DNA of 64,000 nt, taken from assembly GCA_020073495.1 (NCBI GenBank), contig JAIQFD010000002.1:1-64000 (forward strand). The letters run 5' to 3'. This stretch comes from Terriglobia bacterium. Its GTDB lineage: Bacteria; Acidobacteriota; Terriglobia; Terriglobales; Acidobacteriaceae. Below the pieces are notes generated by a model, which was not told where the DNA came from, did no database searches, and saw only the letters and a list, made by a program, of their open reading frames with translations. Position numbers and translations under genes: made by a program. This document shows positions 31,416 to 38,721 of this stretch, piece after piece. Numbering within the stretch: the stretch's first letter is position 1; each line of letters opens with the position of its first letter.

Positions 31416-32366
31416 TCAGACCCCGTGCCCGTATCCCACTTCCGTCACGGACACGTGTTCGAGCCAATCGGCGGAGCGGGGATGATGGCCCCGGGTCACC
31501 TCGCGGAACCCCTGCTGCAATTTCCGGCAAATCGGACCAGTGCGGCCCGCGCCGATCGGACGGAAGTCGATCTCACGCAAGGCGATCACTTCCGCCGCAG
31601 TGCCGCACACGAACACTTCGTCCGCGGTGTAGAGCCGGTCGCGGGAGATGTGTTCCTCGATGACGGTGACATCGAGGTCGCGTGCCAGCGCCAGCAGTGT
31701 GTCGCGCGTGATCCCATCGAGGATGGCGGCGGTTGGCGGCGTGTAGAGGACGCCGTTCCGCGCCAGGAAAAGATTTTCGCCGGTACACTCGGCGACGTAC
31801 CCGTGCGGGTCGAGCATGATGGCTTCGTCGAAACCCAGCCGCCGCGACTCCGTTTTGGCCAGCACCGAGTTGACGTAGTTGCCGGCGATCTTCGCCTTGG
31901 TCATGGAGGCGTTCGGGTGGTGCCGCGTGAACGAGGCCGTGTTGGCGCGCACCCCTTGCTGAAGCGCCTCCTCGCCCAGATAGCTTTCCCACTTCCAAAC
32001 CGCCACGCCGACGTGCGGGACCCCGCAGTCCACGCTGAGGTTCCACCCGCCTTCGGCCAGATAGATCAATGGCCGGATGTAGCACTCGGCGAAGCCATTC
32101 GCCGCCACCACCATCTTGGTCGCTTCGGTCAGCTCGGAGAGCGAGAAGGGCAACTCGATGAAGCCCAGCACGCGCGCCGATTGCAGCAGGCGCTCGAGAT
32201 GGTCTCCCAGGCGGAAGATCGCCGGCCCGTCGCTGGTCTGGTAGCAGCGGATCCCCTCGAAGACGCCGATCCCATAGTGCAGTCCCGGTGTCATGAAATG
32301 CAGAGTGGCCTCTTCGAACGGCACCAGCTTGCCGTTCATCCAAACGAATTGTGACGTCTGACTCAT
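31416..32366 (-). CDS. ilvE: Branched-chain amino-acid aminotransferase
   Basis: A 316-residue fold-type IV PLP enzyme for the last step of Val, Leu and Ile synthesis. Seen are FEGIRCYQT near residue 39, AEGGWNLSVD, the PLP-lysine region ASMTKAKIAGNYVNSVLAK (Lys near residue 160) and EVFVCGTAAEVIALREIDFRPIGAGRTGP at the C-terminus. The ATG at 32366 (MSQTSQFVWMNGKLVPFEEA) fits the family start. It is the last gene of the ilv operon, 8 nt after ilvC. Confidence 0.94.
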   Translation of the reverse strand: MSQTSQFVWMNGKLVPFEEATLHFMTPGLHYGIGVFEGIRCYQTSDGPAIFRLGDHLERLLQSARVLGFIELPFSLSELTEATKMVVAANGFAECYIRPLIYLAEGGWNLSVDCGVPHVGVAVWKWESYLGEEALQQGVRANTASFTRHHPNASMTKAKIAGNYVNSVLAKTESRRLGFDEAIMLDPHGYVAECTGENLFLARNGVLYTPPTAAILDGITRDTLLALARDLDVTVIEEHISRDRLYTADEVFVCGTAAEVIALREIDFRPIGAGRTGPICRKLQQGFREVTRGHHPRSADWLEHVSVTEVGYGHGV

Positions 32367-32374
32367 GACTCTCC

Positions 32375-33394
32375 TCACCCCTGTAGATCTGGTCTTACGT
32401 TCACCGCATCGAGGAAGGGCATCATCTTCCGCAATTCGGCGCCCACCTTCTCCAGCAGTTGGTCCTGTTCGCGGCTGCGGGTCGCCTTGAACCACGGGCG
32501 GCCGTTCTGGTTCTCGGCGATCCACTTTTTCGCGTAGGTACCGTCCTTGATCTCGGCCAGGATCTTCCGCATCTCACGGCGGGTTTCCTCGGTGATGATG
32601 CGCGGGCCTCCGGTGTAGTCGCCGTGTTCCGCCGTGTCGCTGACCGAGTACCGCATGTAGTTCAGCCCCCCGCGGTACATCAGGTCCACGATCAGCTTCA
32701 GTTCGTGCAGGCATTCGAAGTAGGCGATCTCCGGCTGGTACCCGGCCTCGACCAGGGTTTCGAACCCCGCCTTGACCAGCGCGCTGACGCCTCCGCACAA
32801 GACCGTCTGCTCACCGAACAGGTCGGTTTCCGTCTCCTCGGTGAAGGTGGTTTCGATGACGCCCGCCCGGGTCACTCCGAGCGCTTTGGCGTAAGACAGG
32901 GCGAGGGCCTTGGCCTGGCCGGTCGCGTCCTGGTGCACGGCGAGCAGCGCCGGCGTTCCGCCGCCCTCTTGATAAAGTTCGCGCACGCGGTGCCCGGGCG
33001 CCTTAGGCGCGATCATGGTCACGTCGACATCCTTCGGCGGCTCAATGGTCTTGAAGCGGATGTTGAAGCCGTGGGCGAACATCAGCATCTTGCCCGCCTT
33101 GAGTTGGGGCGCGACGCAATGGCGGTAGAGCTCCGGCTGGGCGGTGTCGGGGACGAGCAGCATGATCACGTCGGCCCACGCCGCCGCCGGTCCCACGCCG
33201 CAGACGGTCAATCCGGCTGTCTCGGCGGCCTTGCGAGAGCGGCTCGCATCGTGCAGGCCCACGCGTACCGCCACTTCGCTGTCCTTCAGATTCAGAGCGT
33301 GGGCGTGCCCCTGCGACCCATAGCCGATGATGGCCACTTTCTTCTTGCGAATGAGCTCGAGATCCGCCGCATCGTCGTAATACATGGTTGCCAT
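32375..33394 (-). CDS. ilvC: Ketol-acid reductoisomerase (NADP+)
   Basis: A 339-residue class I KARI. The dinucleotide fold starts [20 protein letters not shown], and [12 protein letters not shown] carries Arg and Ser residues consistent with NADPH preference. The Mg-binding C-terminal domain has the E-x-D-type ligands in [18 protein letters not shown] and later [22 protein letters not shown]-like sequence. The start at 33394 (MATMYYDD) is behind GAGGA; 33385 is an alternative. It lies between ilvN (57 nt gap) and ilvE. Confidence 0.96.
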
Positions 33395-33451: not shown

Positions 33452-34009
33452 TTAGACCGAACACTGGACGTCTTCCGACTGCTCGGCTGTCGTCGTCGTG
33501 GCCTGTGTCTGGCTGGTGGCCGAAAAGTACGATTTCGGTCCTCGTAACATCCCGACCCTTCCGGTGCGCACCATCTCCAGCACGCCGTACGGCCGCAGCA
33601 CCTCGAGCAGGCCGTCGATCTTGTCTTCGGTCCCCGTGATCTCGATGACCATGGACTCCGGGGCCACATCTACGACGCGCGCCCGGAACACCGTCACCAA
33701 CTGCATCAGGTGGGTGCGGCTGTGTTCGTCGGCCGCGACCTTGATCATGGCCAGGTCCCGGAAGATGGCCGGCAACCCGTTCACGTTCTGCACGTGCAGC
33801 ACGTTGACCAGCTTGTAGAGGTACGCCTCGATGCGCTGCGCCGCGTGCACATCGGCCTCCACGGTGATGGTCATGCGCGACACGCCGGGCTGCTCGGTGT
33901 GGCCGACGGTGAGCGATTCGATATTGAATGCCCGCCTGCGGAAGAGCGACGCAACTCGGTTCAGGACTCCTGGCTTGTTTTCGACGTACACGACGAACGT
34001 GTTCAGCAT
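33452..34009 (-). CDS. ilvN: Acetolactate synthase small regulatory subunit
   Basis: A 185-residue subunit with an N-terminal ACT domain (FVVYVENKPGVLNRVASLFRRRAFNIESLTVG, then GVSRMTITV) that confers valine feedback inhibition, and an ALS_ss C-terminal domain (LAMIKVAADEHSRTHLMQL; GTEDKIDGLLEVLRPYGVLEMVRTG). It ends with a Thr/Gln-rich tail. The start is 7 nt after the ilvB stop. Confidence 0.95.
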   Translation of the reverse strand: MLNTFVVYVENKPGVLNRVASLFRRRAFNIESLTVGHTEQPGVSRMTITVEADVHAAQRIEAYLYKLVNVLHVQNVNGLPAIFRDLAMIKVAADEHSRTHLMQLVTVFRARVVDVAPESMVIEITGTEDKIDGLLEVLRPYGVLEMVRTGRVGMLRGPKSYFSATSQTQATTTTAEQSEDVQCSV

Positions 34010-34016
34010 CGTCTCC

Positions 34017-35729
34017 TCATTTCCCTGCGGCTGCGGCCTGCTGCTGCGGTGCGGGCCGCCGGATCATCTCGTGCAGGTCCGCGCCCGCCGGAACCATCGG
34101 GTAGACCGTGTCTTCCTTCTCCACGTGGAACTCGATCAGGCACGCGCCGCGGTGTCTCCGCGCCTCCTGCACCGCTGGGCCGACCTGCGAGCGTTCCCGG
34201 ACCGACATGGCGCGCAGGCCGAAAGACTCGGTCAGCTTCACGAAATCCGGATTGCGCAACGGCGTGGCGTGATAGCGGCCGTCGTAAAAGAACTCCTGCC
34301 ACTGCCGCACCATGCCCAGATAGCCGTTGTTGATGAGCGCGATGTTGATGTCCAGGCCTTCCTGGCCGATGGTCGCCAGCTCCGCCATGGTCATCTGGAA
34401 ACCGCCGTCCCCGACCACCACCCAGACCTCCGCGTCCGGCCGCGCGAACTTGGCGCCGATGGCGGCCGGCAGGGCAAAGCCCATGGTGCCCAGTCCCCCG
34501 GAGGTGATCAGCGAGCGCGGTTCCGCGTGGTGGTAGTACTGCGCCTCCCACATCTGGTGCTGGCCGACGTCGGAGACGACCAGCGCGTGGCCCTTGGTCT
34601 CGCGCCACAGGTCGTTGATGACGTGGGCGGCATACAGGTGCCCGCTGTCCGGCAGGTTCTGGATGTCCCGCACCGCCGAGTCGCCCTTGATCTCCGCGAT
34701 GTGGGCCAGCCAGTCAGACCGGTCGCCAGGTTCCGCTTGCGCCGCCAGGTGCTCCAGCACCTCGCCGACGTCAGCCACCAGGGCGACATCCACTTTGACG
34801 TTCTTGTTGATCTCGGCGCGGTCGATCTCGACGTGGATCTTGGCCGCATGACGAGCGTAGGTCTTCAGGTTCCCGGTCACGCGATCGTCAAAGCGCATGC
34901 CCAGCGCGATCAGAAGGTCCGCCTCCTGGATCGCGTGGTTGACCCAGGCTTCGCCGTGCATGCCCATCATTCCGAGATTCAGCGGGTGCTGTGCAGGAAG
35001 ACATCCGATCCCCAGCAGGGTCATGGCCACCGGGACATTGGCTTTCTCGACGAACTGCCGGAGCGCCTGGGTCGCGCCCGAGAGCATGATGCCGTGACCG
35101 GCCAGGATCAGCGGGCGCTTGGCACGGTTGATCAGCTCGAGTGCCTTGTCGTATTCCGCCGGGTCGCAACCCAGAGAAGGCCGGAAACCGGGCAGCTGCG
35201 GTACTGCCTGCTCCCAATCGAATTCGCACGAGCCCTGCTGCGCGTCCTTCGTGATGTCCACGAGCACCGGGCCCGGACGGCCCGCACGCGCGATATGGAA
35301 CGCCTCCCGCAGGGTGCGCGCGACCTCATCAGGGCGCGTCACCAGTGCGTTGTGCTTGGTGATGGGCAGCGTGATGCCCGTGATGTCGATCTCCTGGAAT
35401 GCGTCGGAGCCGATCAGCTTGCTGCCCACCTGGCCTGTGATGCACACGATGGGGGAGGAATCCAGCATGGCGGTGGCGATGCCGGTCACCATGTTGGTGG
35501 CTCCCGGGCCCGAAGTCGCGATCGCGACTCCGACCCCTCCGCTGGCGCGCGCGTATCCGTCGGCCATATGGGTCGCGCCCTGCTCGTGACGCACCAGCAC
35601 GTGGTGGATCGGATATTTCCAGATCGCATCGTAGGTCGGCAGGATGGCTCCGCCGGGGTAGCCGAACACGTGCGTCACGCCCTCGCGCACCAGGCAATCC
35701 CATATGATCTCCGCGCCTGTCTTCTTCAT
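34017..35729 (-). CDS. ilvB: Acetolactate synthase large catalytic subunit
   Basis: A 570-residue TPP-dependent AHAS. The N-terminal domain has the activating glutamate in VLVRHEQGATHMADGYARAS, a QVGSKLIGSDAFQEIDI FAD-binding-domain entry, and the C-terminal TPP motif GDGGFQMTMAELATIGQEGLDINIALINN. It catalyses the first committed step to Val/Leu (acetolactate) and Ile (acetohydroxybutyrate). The start is 15 nt after ilvD; ilvN follows. Confidence 0.97.
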   Translation of the reverse strand: MKKTGAEIIWDCLVREGVTHVFGYPGGAILPTYDAIWKYPIHHVLVRHEQGATHMADGYARASGGVGVAIATSGPGATNMVTGIATAMLDSSPIVCITGQVGSKLIGSDAFQEIDITGITLPITKHNALVTRPDEVARTLREAFHIARAGRPGPVLVDITKDAQQGSCEFDWEQAVPQLPGFRPSLGCDPAEYDKALELINRAKRPLILAGHGIMLSGATQALRQFVEKANVPVAMTLLGIGCLPAQHPLNLGMMGMHGEAWVNHAIQEADLLIALGMRFDDRVTGNLKTYARHAAKIHVEIDRAEINKNVKVDVALVADVGEVLEHLAAQAEPGDRSDWLAHIAEIKGDSAVRDIQNLPDSGHLYAAHVINDLWRETKGHALVVSDVGQHQMWEAQYYHHAEPRSLITSGGLGTMGFALPAAIGAKFARPDAEVWVVVGDGGFQMTMAELATIGQEGLDINIALINNGYLGMVRQWQEFFYDGRYHATPLRNPDFVKLTESFGLRAMSVRERSQVGPAVQEARRHRGACLIEFHVEKEDTVYPMVPAGADLHEMIRRPAPQQQAAAAGK

Positions 35730-35744: not shown

Positions 35745-37553
35745 CTACTCCGTCACCGCTCCCTGCGCCGCCGACGACACCAGCCGCGCGTACTTGGCCA
35801 GCACGCCGCTGGCGTAACGCGGCTGGGGCGCGCTCCAGCCCGCCAGCCGCGCCTTCATCTCGTCCTGCGACAGCTCCACGCGCAACTCCCGGCGCGGTAT
35901 GTCGAACACGATCATGTCGCGGTCGCGCAGCGCGGCGATCGGACCTCCACACGCGGCCTCTGGAGCGACGTGGCCTGCCATCAGTCCGTGCGTCGCCCCG
36001 GAGAACCGCCCATCCGTGATCAGCGCCACCGAGTCACCGAGCCCCGCACCGCTGATCGCGGCTGTGACCGCAAGCATCTCGCGCATGCCTGGTCCGCCCC
36101 GCGGCCCCTCGTACCGGATGACCACCACGTCGCCGGCGCGGATGCCGCCGCTCTGCACCGCGGCGAAGGCTTGCTCCTCGCTGTCGAACACGCGGGCCGG
36201 CCCCCGATATTGCAGGAGGTTGTGTCCGGCGACCTTCACCACGCAGCCTTCCGGCGCGAGATTGCCCTTCAGGATCACGATGCCGCCACTGGTCTTGAGC
36301 GGACGCTGCAACGGGCGCACCACCTCTTGCCCAGCCGTTTCCTGCGCCTCGCCAGCCTCTTCTCCAATGCTTCGTCCCGTCACCGTCATGGCGTCGTGGT
36401 GCAGCAGGCCAGCCTGCCGCAGCCGCTGCGCCACCAGGCGCGTGCCCCCCGCCTGGTACAGATCGGTGGCCACGAACCTGCCGCCTGGCTTTAGATCGGC
36501 GAGCAGAGGTACCCGGGCGCTGATGCGGTCAAAGTCGTCGATGCTGAGGGAGACGCCGGCCTCCCGCGCGATCGCCAGAAGATGCAACACGGCGTTGGTG
36601 GAGCCGCCCGTGGCGGCGACGCTGGCGATGGCGTTCTCGATCGATTCGCGGGTGATGATCTCGCGGGGCCGGAGATCGCGGGAGTAGAGCTGCATCAGCA
36701 TCGCACCCGCTTTCCACGCGGCACCGGCCTTGTTGTGGTCTGTCGCGGGCACGCTGGAGGCCCCCATGGGCGCGATACCGAGGAACTCGCAGGCGGTAGC
36801 CATGGTGTTGGCGGTGAACTGGCCGCCGCAGGCGCCGGCCCCGGGACAGGCACTGTTCTCCAGCGCCGCCAGCTGCGCGTCGCTCATCTGCCCCTTGGCG
36901 TGAGCGCCGACCGCCTCGAACACGTCCTGGATGGTGACGGCGTGGCCCTCAAAGCTCCCCGGCGCGATCGAGCCTCCGTACAGCACTAGGCCGGGCACGT
37001 TCACGCGCACCAGGGCCATGACCGCCGCCGGGATGGTTTTGTCGCATCCCACTAGGACGATCAGGGCGTCAAAGAGATTGCCGCGCGCCACCAGTTCGAT
37101 CGAATCTGCGATCACCTCGCGGCTCACCAGCGAGGTCCGCATGCCTTCCGTGCCCATCGTGATCCCGTCGGAGATGGACACGGTGTTGAATTCCATCGGC
37201 GTGCCGCCGGCGCTGCGAATGCCCTGCTTGACGTATTCCGCGAGTTGCCGCAGGTGATGATTGCAGGGGCCGATCTCGATCCAGGTGTTGGCGATGCCGA
37301 CGATGGGGCGTTGCAGATCTGCGTCGGTGAAGCCTGCACCCTTCAGCATGGCGCGCGCCGGCGCCCGGCTGGCCCCGTCGGTCACTGCGCCGCTGCGCTG
37401 TTTGCGCAGCGGTCCGCTCTGGGTCTCGCGCGGTCCGCCGAACAAGCTCGCCTGCGGTGGTCGCTTGGACGGTTCCGACGTCGCCGCTAGGGACGAAAAG
37501 TCGCGCGGTTCACCGAAGAAATTCGGCTGGGGGGCCGGCTGCCGCGTTGCCAT
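35745..37553 (-). CDS. ilvD: Dihydroxy-acid dehydratase
   Basis: A 602-residue Fe-S dehydratase for the third step of Val and Ile synthesis. Cluster cysteines are in [16 protein letters not shown] and [19 protein letters not shown], and the C-terminal region has [13 protein letters not shown] and [12 protein letters not shown]. The family start corresponds to about residue 45 ([22 protein letters not shown]). The extra N-terminal 45 residues are Pro/Ser-rich and contain two similar units (PNFFGEPRD and ASLFGGPRE). AGGAG lies 6 nt before the ATG at 37553, so the extension is probably translated. It is the first structural gene behind an attenuator. Confidence 0.96.
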
Positions 37554-37570
37554 GAAGACTCCTAATCGTT

Positions 37571-37620
37571 CTATGAAAAATGAAAAAGCCCACTCGCCAT
37601 TTGCTTCTGGCGGTGGGCTT
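37571..37620 (-). terminator. Attenuator terminator of the ilv operon
   Basis: Reading the reverse strand, AAGCCCACCGCCA (37620-37608) pairs with TGGCGAGTGGGCTT (37599-37586), with one bulged or mismatched position. The hairpin is followed by TTTTTCATTTTTCAT. It starts 21 nt after the stop of a leader peptide rich in branched-chain residues and ends about 17 nt before ilvD, which is the classical layout for transcription attenuation. I did not derive an explicit antiterminator pairing. Confidence 0.85.
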
Positions 37621-37641
37621 AAGCTTCTTGCTTTACTTAGC

Positions 37642-37737
37642 TCAAGTCCTGCCGGCCAGAACGGGGGTAATAAGCAGTACTACGCTTACGCCGATAAGCA
37701 GCAGTACCCCTACCGTGTTCTGGCCAACGTGTGACAT
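37642..37737 (-). CDS. ilv operon leader peptide
   Basis: A 31-residue frame (ATG at 37737, TGA at 37644-37642) whose middle reads [15 protein letters not shown]. Sixteen of the 31 residues are Val, Leu or Ile, the end products of the operon. Stalling of the translating ribosome when charged tRNAs are scarce would prevent formation of the terminator that begins 21 nt downstream. There is no clear Shine-Dalgarno sequence; a TATATT at 37753-37748 could be a -10 box that would put the transcript start only a few nucleotides before the ATG (nearly leaderless). No codons are unusual. Confidence 0.8.
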
Positions 37738-37860
37738 GTGAAAGGGCAATATACGCGGGATCGACGACCAGGCGTACGCGTAAATTTTCGATTGGAGCTA
37801 TCGAAAAATCAGGAGCGACGCCCGGAGTGCCGGAGCACGCCGCTCCGGCACGCGCAGGGG

Positions 37861-38721
37861 CTATTCCGCAAACATCAATTCCTTGGCCCGCTCCGCCGCT
37901 TTGACCACCGCCTTGATCAAGGTGACGCGCAGCTTGCCCTCCTCGAGTTCGAGGATGCCATCGATGGTGCAGCCGGCGGGCGTCGTGACCGCGTCCTTGA
38001 GCAGAGCCGGATGGTCGCCGGTCTGCAGCACGACCTGGGAGGCCCCCATGGCCGTCTGCGCCGCCATCAGCGTCGCGATGTCTCGCGGCAGGCCCACCTT
38101 CACGCCGGCCTCGGCGAGTGATTCCAGGATGATGTACACGAACGCGGGGCCACTCGCCGAGAGGCCGGTCACCGCGTCCATGTGCTTCTCGTCGACGAAC
38201 ACCGTCCTGCCCACCGTTTCGAACAGATGACGCGCGATCTCCAGGTGGGACTGGTTGGCGTTCGCTCCTTTGCAGATGCCCGTCATCCCGCACCCCACCA
38301 TGCACGGCGTATTCGGCATGGCGCGCACCACCGGCACGCCGGCGGGCAGGCGCGCTTGCATGTAGCTGGTCGGTACCGATGCCGCCACCGAAATGACGAA
38401 CTGTTTCTTGGTCACCACCGGAGCGATCTCTTCCAGCACCGGACCGACGGCCGGAGGTTTCACGCAGATCAGGATGATGTCGGCGTTCCGGACCGCTTCA
38501 CGATTGTCCGTTCCCACCGCGATGCCCAGGGACCGGCTGCGGCTCCGCGCGCTCTCCGCATGCTGCACGGAGGCCCGCACGCGTCCCGCGGGCAGGCCCT
38601 TTTGCAGTAGGGCTTGCAGCAGGATGCTCCCGATCTTGCCTGTGCCGATCACCGCTACGCGCTTGCTCGCGAGAGCAGGCTCCAGCGTTCGTTCTTTTGT
38701 CTTTCGTCCGGTTCGTTTCAC
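37861..38721 (-). CDS. proC: Pyrroline-5-carboxylate reductase
   Basis: A protein of 286 residues from a GTG at 38721, making proline from P5C with NAD(P)H. The Rossmann motif KRVAVIGTGKIGSILLQALL comes near residue 20, ILICVKPPAVGPVL is in the middle, and the family signature region is AMPNTPCMVGCGMTGI followed by AVTGLSASGPAFVYIILESLAEAGVKVGLPRD. The C-terminal LLKDAVTTPAGCTIDGILELEEG closes the domain. The exact start is uncertain: no ATG occurs close to the Rossmann fold, and upstream sequence is Arg-rich. It stands alone between the ilv leader and a small Cys-rich gene. Confidence 0.9.
   Translation of the reverse strand: MKRTGRKTKERTLEPALASKRVAVIGTGKIGSILLQALLQKGLPAGRVRASVQHAESARSRSRSLGIAVGTDNREAVRNADIILICVKPPAVGPVLEEIAPVVTKKQFVISVAASVPTSYMQARLPAGVPVVRAMPNTPCMVGCGMTGICKGANANQSHLEIARHLFETVGRTVFVDEKHMDAVTGLSASGPAFVYIILESLAEAGVKVGLPRDIATLMAAQTAMGASQVVLQTGDHPALLKDAVTTPAGCTIDGILELEEGKLRVTLIKAVVKAAERAKELMFAE

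Follow-up and report, generated by a model that had tools for sequence, protein, structure and literature searches.

A probable ribosome-mediated transcription attenuator in front of the ilvDBNCE operon of an Acidobacteriaceae genome, and leaders of related architecture in the phylum

Background

The leaders of the E. coli operons ilvGMEDA and ilvBN, like those of trp, his, leu and thr, combine tandem control codons with an intrinsic terminator, an antiterminator and a protector helix 1:2. Mycobacterial polycysteine attenuators are leaderless short frames which sense an amino acid; the Cys-rich leaders described below are comparable to these, although they occur in a different phylum. In the present work we analyzed a stretch of 64,000 nucleotides, below named the window, from a Terriglobia bacterium whose genome (G000) comprises 3.70 Mb in 8 contigs. 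The window's element has in common with the E. coli attenuators the tandem end-product codons, the terminator, the competing antiterminator and helix 1:2; it differs from them in phylum and sequence, in its apparently leaderless peptide and in the location of the stop codon inside region 2.

The closest parallel in the literature is found in those parts of PMC10272879 which treat an attenuator with an upstream frame in front of Corynebacterium ilvB and the re-reading of the ilvB-OMG motif. The Corynebacterium ilvBNC attenuator (ilvB-II motif) is described as possessing a branched-chain leader peptide without ribosome binding site as well as a terminator, an antiterminator and an antiantiterminator (PMC11857589, PMC10272879). 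Its control codons are given as CUU and GUA (PMC11857589), i.e. codons which are enriched here too. According to these descriptions it is nevertheless set apart from our case: it is actinobacterial, it precedes ilvB and not ilvD, and it is a different RNA. The same work re-reads the ilvB-OMG and Leptospira ilvB motifs of various phyla as short frames with many branched-chain and Thr codons (PMC10272879). As described, these motifs go with ilvB, whereas the window's element precedes ilvD; neither motif was detected in Rfam scans of the window's leader and the loci of seven relatives. With respect to Acidobacteria, Korolev et al. report that short leader genes peak directly in front of genes, in other groups as well, and offer reinitiation as explanation (PMC4833913). 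Leaderless genes were predicted in three of three Acidobacteria genomes, with a mean of 13.3% of genes (PMC3160421).

The mechanism itself is classical; what the window seems to add is an element that is well supported computationally, in a phylum where it is seemingly uncharacterized. A preliminary description of the locus had stated that no characterized case was known in this phylum, and our search of the open-licence literature, which found no branched-chain attenuator described there, agrees. The survey of Lopatovskaya et al. 2010 could contain such predictions; hence, we make no firm claim of priority. The use of pathway-matched attenuators across the phylum, which is more interesting than the window's element, looks undescribed in the literature searched.

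The leader frame and its operon

The element is located on the minus strand between proC, which ends at 37861, and five genes of branched-chain amino acid synthesis. The order is proC, TATATT, leader, terminator, AGGAG, ilvD-ilvB-ilvN-ilvC-ilvE, and for each of the six genes an NCBIfam model scores above its curated cut-off. The nearest relative of the genome is G001, whose IlvD is 83% identical. The features are:

37748..37753, minus strand: probable -10 element TATATT (from the sequence; 10 nt between its end and the leader ATG, with the same spacing for TATAGT in G001)
37642..37737, minus strand: leader peptide frame of 31 codons plus TGA, without Shine-Dalgarno sequence (frame of similar residues in G001)
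37669..37713, minus strand: control codons 9-23, five of them GTA (sequence and frame census)
35745..37553, minus strand: ilvD, dihydroxy-acid dehydratase (TIGR00110, above cut-off)
34017..35729, minus strand: ilvB, acetolactate synthase large subunit (TIGR00118, above cut-off)
33452..34009, minus strand: ilvN, acetolactate synthase small subunit (TIGR00119, above cut-off)
32375..33394, minus strand: ilvC, ketol-acid reductoisomerase, ATG chosen as start (TIGR00465, above cut-off)
31416..32366, minus strand: ilvE, branched-chain amino acid transaminase, ATG chosen as start (TIGR01122, above cut-off)

The leader frame extends from the ATG at 37737 to the TGA at 37644-37642. It contains 15 L/I/V residues; among the 15 codons 9-23, 12 are of this class. 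A census of the 478 window frames of 15-60 codons, taken over all six frames, identified the leader as the only one with at least 11 L/I/V per 15 codons. The observations from which the preliminary description had started, namely a branched-chain-rich frame of 31 codons 21 nt before a strong terminator, with ilvD following next, were all confirmed in the sequence. At the ilvD end, AGGAG (37563-37559) lies five bases 5' of the ATG at 37553.

The ten bases GCCCTTTCAC separate TATATT from the leader ATG, and there is no Shine-Dalgarno sequence among them. The hexamer had likewise been pointed out earlier as lying close to the ATG, with the suggestion of a nearly leaderless peptide. This reading gains support, because G001 has a TATAGT exactly ten bases before its leader ATG; no Shine-Dalgarno sequence is seen there either. 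Judged from the spacing of the -10 element and the start regions of both genomes, the window's leader peptide may be leaderless or nearly so. No match to a -35 element was seen upstream of the leader, and for the range 37400-38000 the output of a simple scanner contained no promoter and no terminator; the terminator stem carries a bulge. A plus-strand frame of 53 codons (37580-37741), antisense to the leader and resembling a signal peptide, was rejected as a gene because it is stopped after 11 codons in G001.

Predicted RNA structures and simulated ribosome positions

The leader contains four segments and a tail:

37717..37728, minus strand: region 1 (codons 4-7), partner of region 2 in the untranslated leader (folding; compensatory double change in G001)
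37639..37662, minus strand: region 2, frame end including the stop codon, partner of region 1 or 3 (folding; complementarity to the terminator arm, p = 0.013 against shuffles)
37605..37625, minus strand: region 3, partner of region 2 (antiterminator) or region 4 (terminator) (folding)
37586..37598, minus strand: region 4, 3' arm of the terminator stem, whose 5' arm is 37620-37609 (folding)
37576..37585, minus strand: T-rich tail TTTCATTTTT of the terminator (sequence)

The fold of the 202-nt leader has an energy of -75.7 kcal/mol compared with -55.6 ± 4.1 kcal/mol for 200 shuffles (z = -4.9), none of which was as low. The terminator stem AAGCCCACCGCC...GGCGAGTGGGCTT (37620-37586) comprises 12 bp with a bulge, and its first paired base follows the stop codon by 21 nt; the hairpin amounts to -24.9 kcal/mol and is followed by a U-rich tail. 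The preliminary description had proposed to fold the leader in both states in search of an antiterminator. Our computations revealed one which competes with the terminator: according to the predicted folds helix 1:2 (12 bp), which forms without translation, antiterminator 2:3 and terminator 3:4 are mutually exclusive.

In order to represent a ribosome, an unpaired block was extended to 12 nt beyond the first base of the A-site codon, and nothing upstream was allowed to pair. For a cotranscriptional test, we folded the RNA made before region 4 with A-site codons from 7 to the stop. A 15-bp antiterminator 2:3 resulted for A-site codons 7-23; it weakened across codons 24-27 and was absent from 28 to the stop (codons 28-32). 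As the stop codon is located inside region 2, a simulated ribosome at the stop covers this region. For the window's full-length RNA, the terminator was kept at every simulated ribosome position: with stalls at codons 7-23, the antiterminator state was less stable than this fold by about 6 to 11 kcal/mol. When region 2 was barred from other partners, the gap was 0.4-1.5 kcal/mol (codons 7-22) and 6.7 kcal/mol (codon 23). The terminator is thus favored at equilibrium; for the model to hold, helix 2:3 would have to form while region 4 is not yet transcribed, which is the usual kinetic argument. The full-length fold of the G001 leader contained the antiterminator and no terminator at codons 10-22 only.

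With a probability of roughly 0.87, we consider the element to be a classical four-segment attenuator through which the ribosome controls transcription of ilvDBNCE. As far as the sequence can tell, the interpretation given in the preliminary description is supported. Computation established the frame, the helices with their mutual exclusion, the conservation in G001 and the codon bias; the place of the promoter, translation of the frame and an effect of amino acids are inferred in this model. Transcription would probably start at the leader AUG or a few bases off. If charged tRNA for Val, Leu or Ile runs low, the ribosome would stall in codons 9-23 and keep region 1 unpaired; region 2 could then pair with region 3, and RNA polymerase would continue into ilvD. 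If charged tRNA is plentiful, a ribosome reaching the stop codon would mask region 2, which would allow the 3:4 terminator to form. An untranslated leader would adopt helix 1:2 and subsequently the terminator.

Conservation in the nearest relative and at other ilvD loci

The leader peptide of G001 is MSCIGHNVVGVLLLSVGILLPISPLVAGGT. The terminator stem is unchanged, and the position of the stop codon within region 2 is identical. Helix 1:2 shows a paired exchange from GGCCAGAA/TTCTGGCC in the window to GGCCACAA/TTGTGGCC in G001. Between the two leader frames there are 11, 3 and 6 differences at codon positions 1, 2 and 3, i.e. the fewest at the second position, in a small sample.

To a wider set of 110 ilvD upstream regions, which includes some labeled as other phyla as well as two loci identical in sequence (L073 and L092, both negative), a fixed rule was applied: a hairpin of at most -12 kcal/mol with a U-rich tail had to be preceded, at a distance of 9-75 nt from the stop, by a frame with at least 7 L/I/V per 12 codons. 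This rule was passed by 29 of the 110 regions, compared with 1 of 550 dinucleotide shuffles. In the window's own family, only 4 of 21 ilvD loci satisfied it; L089, a family member outside these four, has a similar peptide and, by eye, a poor T-tract. The preliminary description had made its reading depend on relatives conserving the Val/Leu/Ile content of the peptide and the terminator. Both are retained in G001, and the arrangement recurs at the 29 loci, whereas within the family the expectation holds for the said minority only.

At 23 of the 29 loci, which are related to one another, the region around the stop codon is complementary to the 5' arm of the terminator beyond shuffles (p ≤ 0.05; p = 0.013 for the window); no clear complementarity was found at the remaining six (L022, L030, L036, L045, L052, L080). 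Three of the 29 carry Chloroflexi or Anaerolineae labels (L030, L051, L052); their Leu/Ile-rich leaders have a different terminator, GGGCTGTCC...GGACAGCCC. They too precede ilvD, so that more than one phylum has this arrangement.

A further observation concerns the 5' end of the leaders. In at least 10 of 17 loci picked by eye (L004, L009, L012, L017, L036, L041, L050 and similar ones), a short conserved hairpin ATGGCGAT...ATG...ATCGCCAT encloses the start codon, with a paired change to TGGGCGAT/ATCGCCCA in L036. There is complementarity, too, between the 3' arm of this hairpin and region 2; this would give a chain of five competing segments. No such hairpin exists upstream of the ATG in the window's copy.

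Codon choice

GTA makes up 5 of the 7 Val codons in the window's leader compared with 3% in the operon (p = 5e-7). The same preference was computed for the 29 leaders, where GTA accounts for 50 of 162 Val codons, while 8.8 are expected from the ilvD usage of the same loci; ATT occurs 47 times (22.8 expected) and CTT 23 times (9.6 expected). Helix constraints could be the source of part of this bias. The preference for GTA, ATT and CTT leads to predictions on which tRNA isoacceptors carry the starvation signal.

Alternative explanations

The frame might encode a small hydrophobic peptide with a function of its own, and the terminator might simply end the transcript of this peptide or of proC. 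The leader peptide is indeed hydrophobic, and the upstream gene proC has the same orientation. However, the leaders of relatives conserve the residue class and not the protein sequence, several of them have an Arg inside the stretch (e.g. LVVVVRSVGVIITPAASG), rare codons are used, and the stop codon sits within the antiterminator strand. All these features make a functional peptide very improbable.

T-box and riboswitch-type RNAs control branched-chain genes in other phyla, and the operon could therefore be governed by a leader RNA of this kind, with the frame being incidental. A ppGpp riboswitch is mentioned in front of some ilvB genes (PMC10272879). However, in an Rfam scan of the window's leader no family, including the Trp, His, Leu and Thr leaders and the T-box, reached its gathering score, and the loci of seven relatives gave no cis-regulatory match, so that such control is hardly to be expected here. 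The sub-threshold scores, namely Trp_leader with 15.9 bits (cut-off 41), a snoRNA and others further off, were taken as chance matches.

The least credible explanation is a chance neighborhood of frame and hairpin without regulatory function: although the element is absent before ilvD in most family members and the scanner found no strong promoter, G001 keeps the residue class, the stop position, the -10 spacing, the terminator and a compensatory helix change, and shuffled sequences almost never pass the rule satisfied by the 29 loci.

A shared core in other leaders of the phylum

Apart from the attenuator of the window, many leaders of the phylum follow one pattern: the frame ends with GGA TGA TG, and these letters recur as the 3' arm of the terminator, with GGCCATCATCC in between. 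Due to this repetition, the stop codon belongs to the antiterminator strand. Two covariance models were built for this family, the core of which is GGATGATG...GGCCATCATCC. R1 includes the codon region; R2, built from ilvD leaders only, ranges from region 2 to the U-tract and excludes the peptide region. R2 matched 56 and R1 57 of the 396 genomes of the phylum (E ≤ 0.01 for R2). Among 58 examined R2 matches, from which 9 judged false had been excluded, 55 have the TGA at the expected place. The window's leader was matched neither by R2 nor by R1 (best elsewhere E = 0.65). Consequently, the window's copy has the architecture in common with the family and not the sequence, and we do not claim common descent.

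The alignment A1 consists of the 31 loci chosen by the terminator pattern, minus L014 and L040; A2 additionally omits L011 and L027. Because of this choice, the conservation in A1 is partly by construction; the fixed-rule count and the complementarity shuffles are independent of the pattern. In A1, 95.7% of the cells of helix 2:3 are paired, there is no pair with a two-sided change, and the covariation score is reached by 118 of 500 shuffles. For the terminator helix, three pairs are changed on both sides, a count reached by 22 of 500 shuffles.

In five matches (L117, L124, L166, L168, L179), region 2 reads GGATGATGTAG and offers stops in two frames (TGA, TAG); here, the pathway-fitting peptide ends at the second stop with ...MM.

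Control codons and downstream genes

Of the 87 places matched by R2, 67 were examined; the 20 omitted ones were 8 opposite-strand echoes of terminators counted before, 3 overlapping or two-strand cases and 9 weak matches. Downstream genes were named by NCBIfam or by likeness to the window's ilv genes, those of L163, L173 and L140 by the start of the protein. Places repeating an R1 locus took the gene label of that locus, and the label "Cys" for the siroheme synthase domain of L144 is our own assignment. The genes located 3' of R2 matches include ilvD, ilvB and ilvN as well as those for citramalate synthase, homoserine dehydrogenase, aspartokinase, cysteine synthase, a siroheme synthase domain and prephenate dehydratase.

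The peptides differ accordingly: LAIIIRSIIL precedes citramalate synthase (L186), TTIVITTTTCG aspartokinase (L150), LTCTCPRRCVACCC cysteine synthase (L193), and ICPICSCCC the siroheme synthase domain (L144). For 40 places (25 branched-chain, 12 Thr, 3 Cys), labels were permuted. The top residue class fits the gene in 34 of the 40, compared with 16.5 expected from permutation; this number was never reached in 20,000 permutations, which is no true probability, as related genomes are not independent. The six mismatches were all scored as Cys (L117, L124, L121, L179, L140, L190); in the first five of these, an alternative frame or stop of the same match is Val-rich. The other 27 examined places comprise 9 presumed false positives (neither a fitting gene nor a fitting peptide), 5 prephenate dehydratase genes, 4 short frames of unknown identity, 3 LysR, 2 glutamate synthase and 2 MFS genes, 1 thiol-disulfide oxidoreductase-like gene and 1 contig edge.

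In the window's genus, a search for sister attenuators covered 12 loci of G000 and G001 in front of leuA-like, homoserine dehydrogenase and cysteine synthase genes, the homoserine dehydrogenase domain being present in G000 only. For each family match, 700 nt of upstream sequence were inspected; the match may start partly inside the gene, and so may this stretch. T-tailed hairpins occur in 4 of the 12 loci, none with a matching peptide frame; no sister attenuator was found at these loci, and in the window's genome the loci of cysteine synthase showed no Cys leader. Therefore, only the ilv case is claimed for this genus.

A reading which would unite these results, and to which we give even odds, is that the phylum uses one modular attenuator across amino acid pathways. 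The RNA core would be shared, with the stop inside an antiterminator strand which repeats the 3' arm of the terminator (GGATGATG), and only the control codons would be swapped: Val/Leu/Ile for ilv and citramalate synthase, Thr for aspartokinase and homoserine dehydrogenase, Cys for cysteine synthase and the siroheme synthase domain. Duplication would have carried the module from operon to operon, and the version found in the window's genus would have diverged in sequence and have a leaderless peptide. If this is true, ribosome-mediated attenuation is a main control of branched-chain, threonine and cysteine synthesis in members of this soil phylum, and R2 supplies an annotation rule for such attenuators. 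A near-constant core with exchanged codons would moreover allow tests of the movement of attenuators between operons.

Further observations on individual leaders

Cys-rich frames such as ICPICSCCC and RILTCTCPRRCVACCC end in the shared core at L144, L193, L195 and L206; behind them lie genes for cysteine synthases or a siroheme synthase domain, whereas L195 has a thiol-disulfide oxidoreductase-like gene in this place. Thr-rich frames, some with Ile or Met, occur in the shared core at L149, L150, L153, L166, L168, L174, L188, L191, L192, L194 and L204, where they precede homoserine dehydrogenase or aspartokinase; L166 and L168 contain also several Met codons. L216, one of the 12 loci inspected in the window's genus, with a Thr-rich frame before a weak hairpin, was rejected, as the gene is a cysteine synthase. 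At L170 and L198 the core precedes the large subunit of glutamate synthase, and the leaders contain Thr, Ile or Met, not Glu or Gln.

At L151, L167, L177 and L185, Leu/Ile-rich leaders plus core are located before a short frame; scans of this frame in L167 and L177 gave no match to an NCBIfam model. The core precedes genes of LysR-type regulators at L145, L165 and L184. The Val/Leu/Ile-rich leaders of L145 and L184 suggest that regulators of branched-chain genes are under attenuation. Finally, five loci (L010, L015, L027, L029, L055) share an AT-rich motif (~ATGAA...GTAA..ATTATAA) upstream of the leader, directly 5' of a -35-like TTGA; this motif may be the operator for a regulator acting alongside attenuation.
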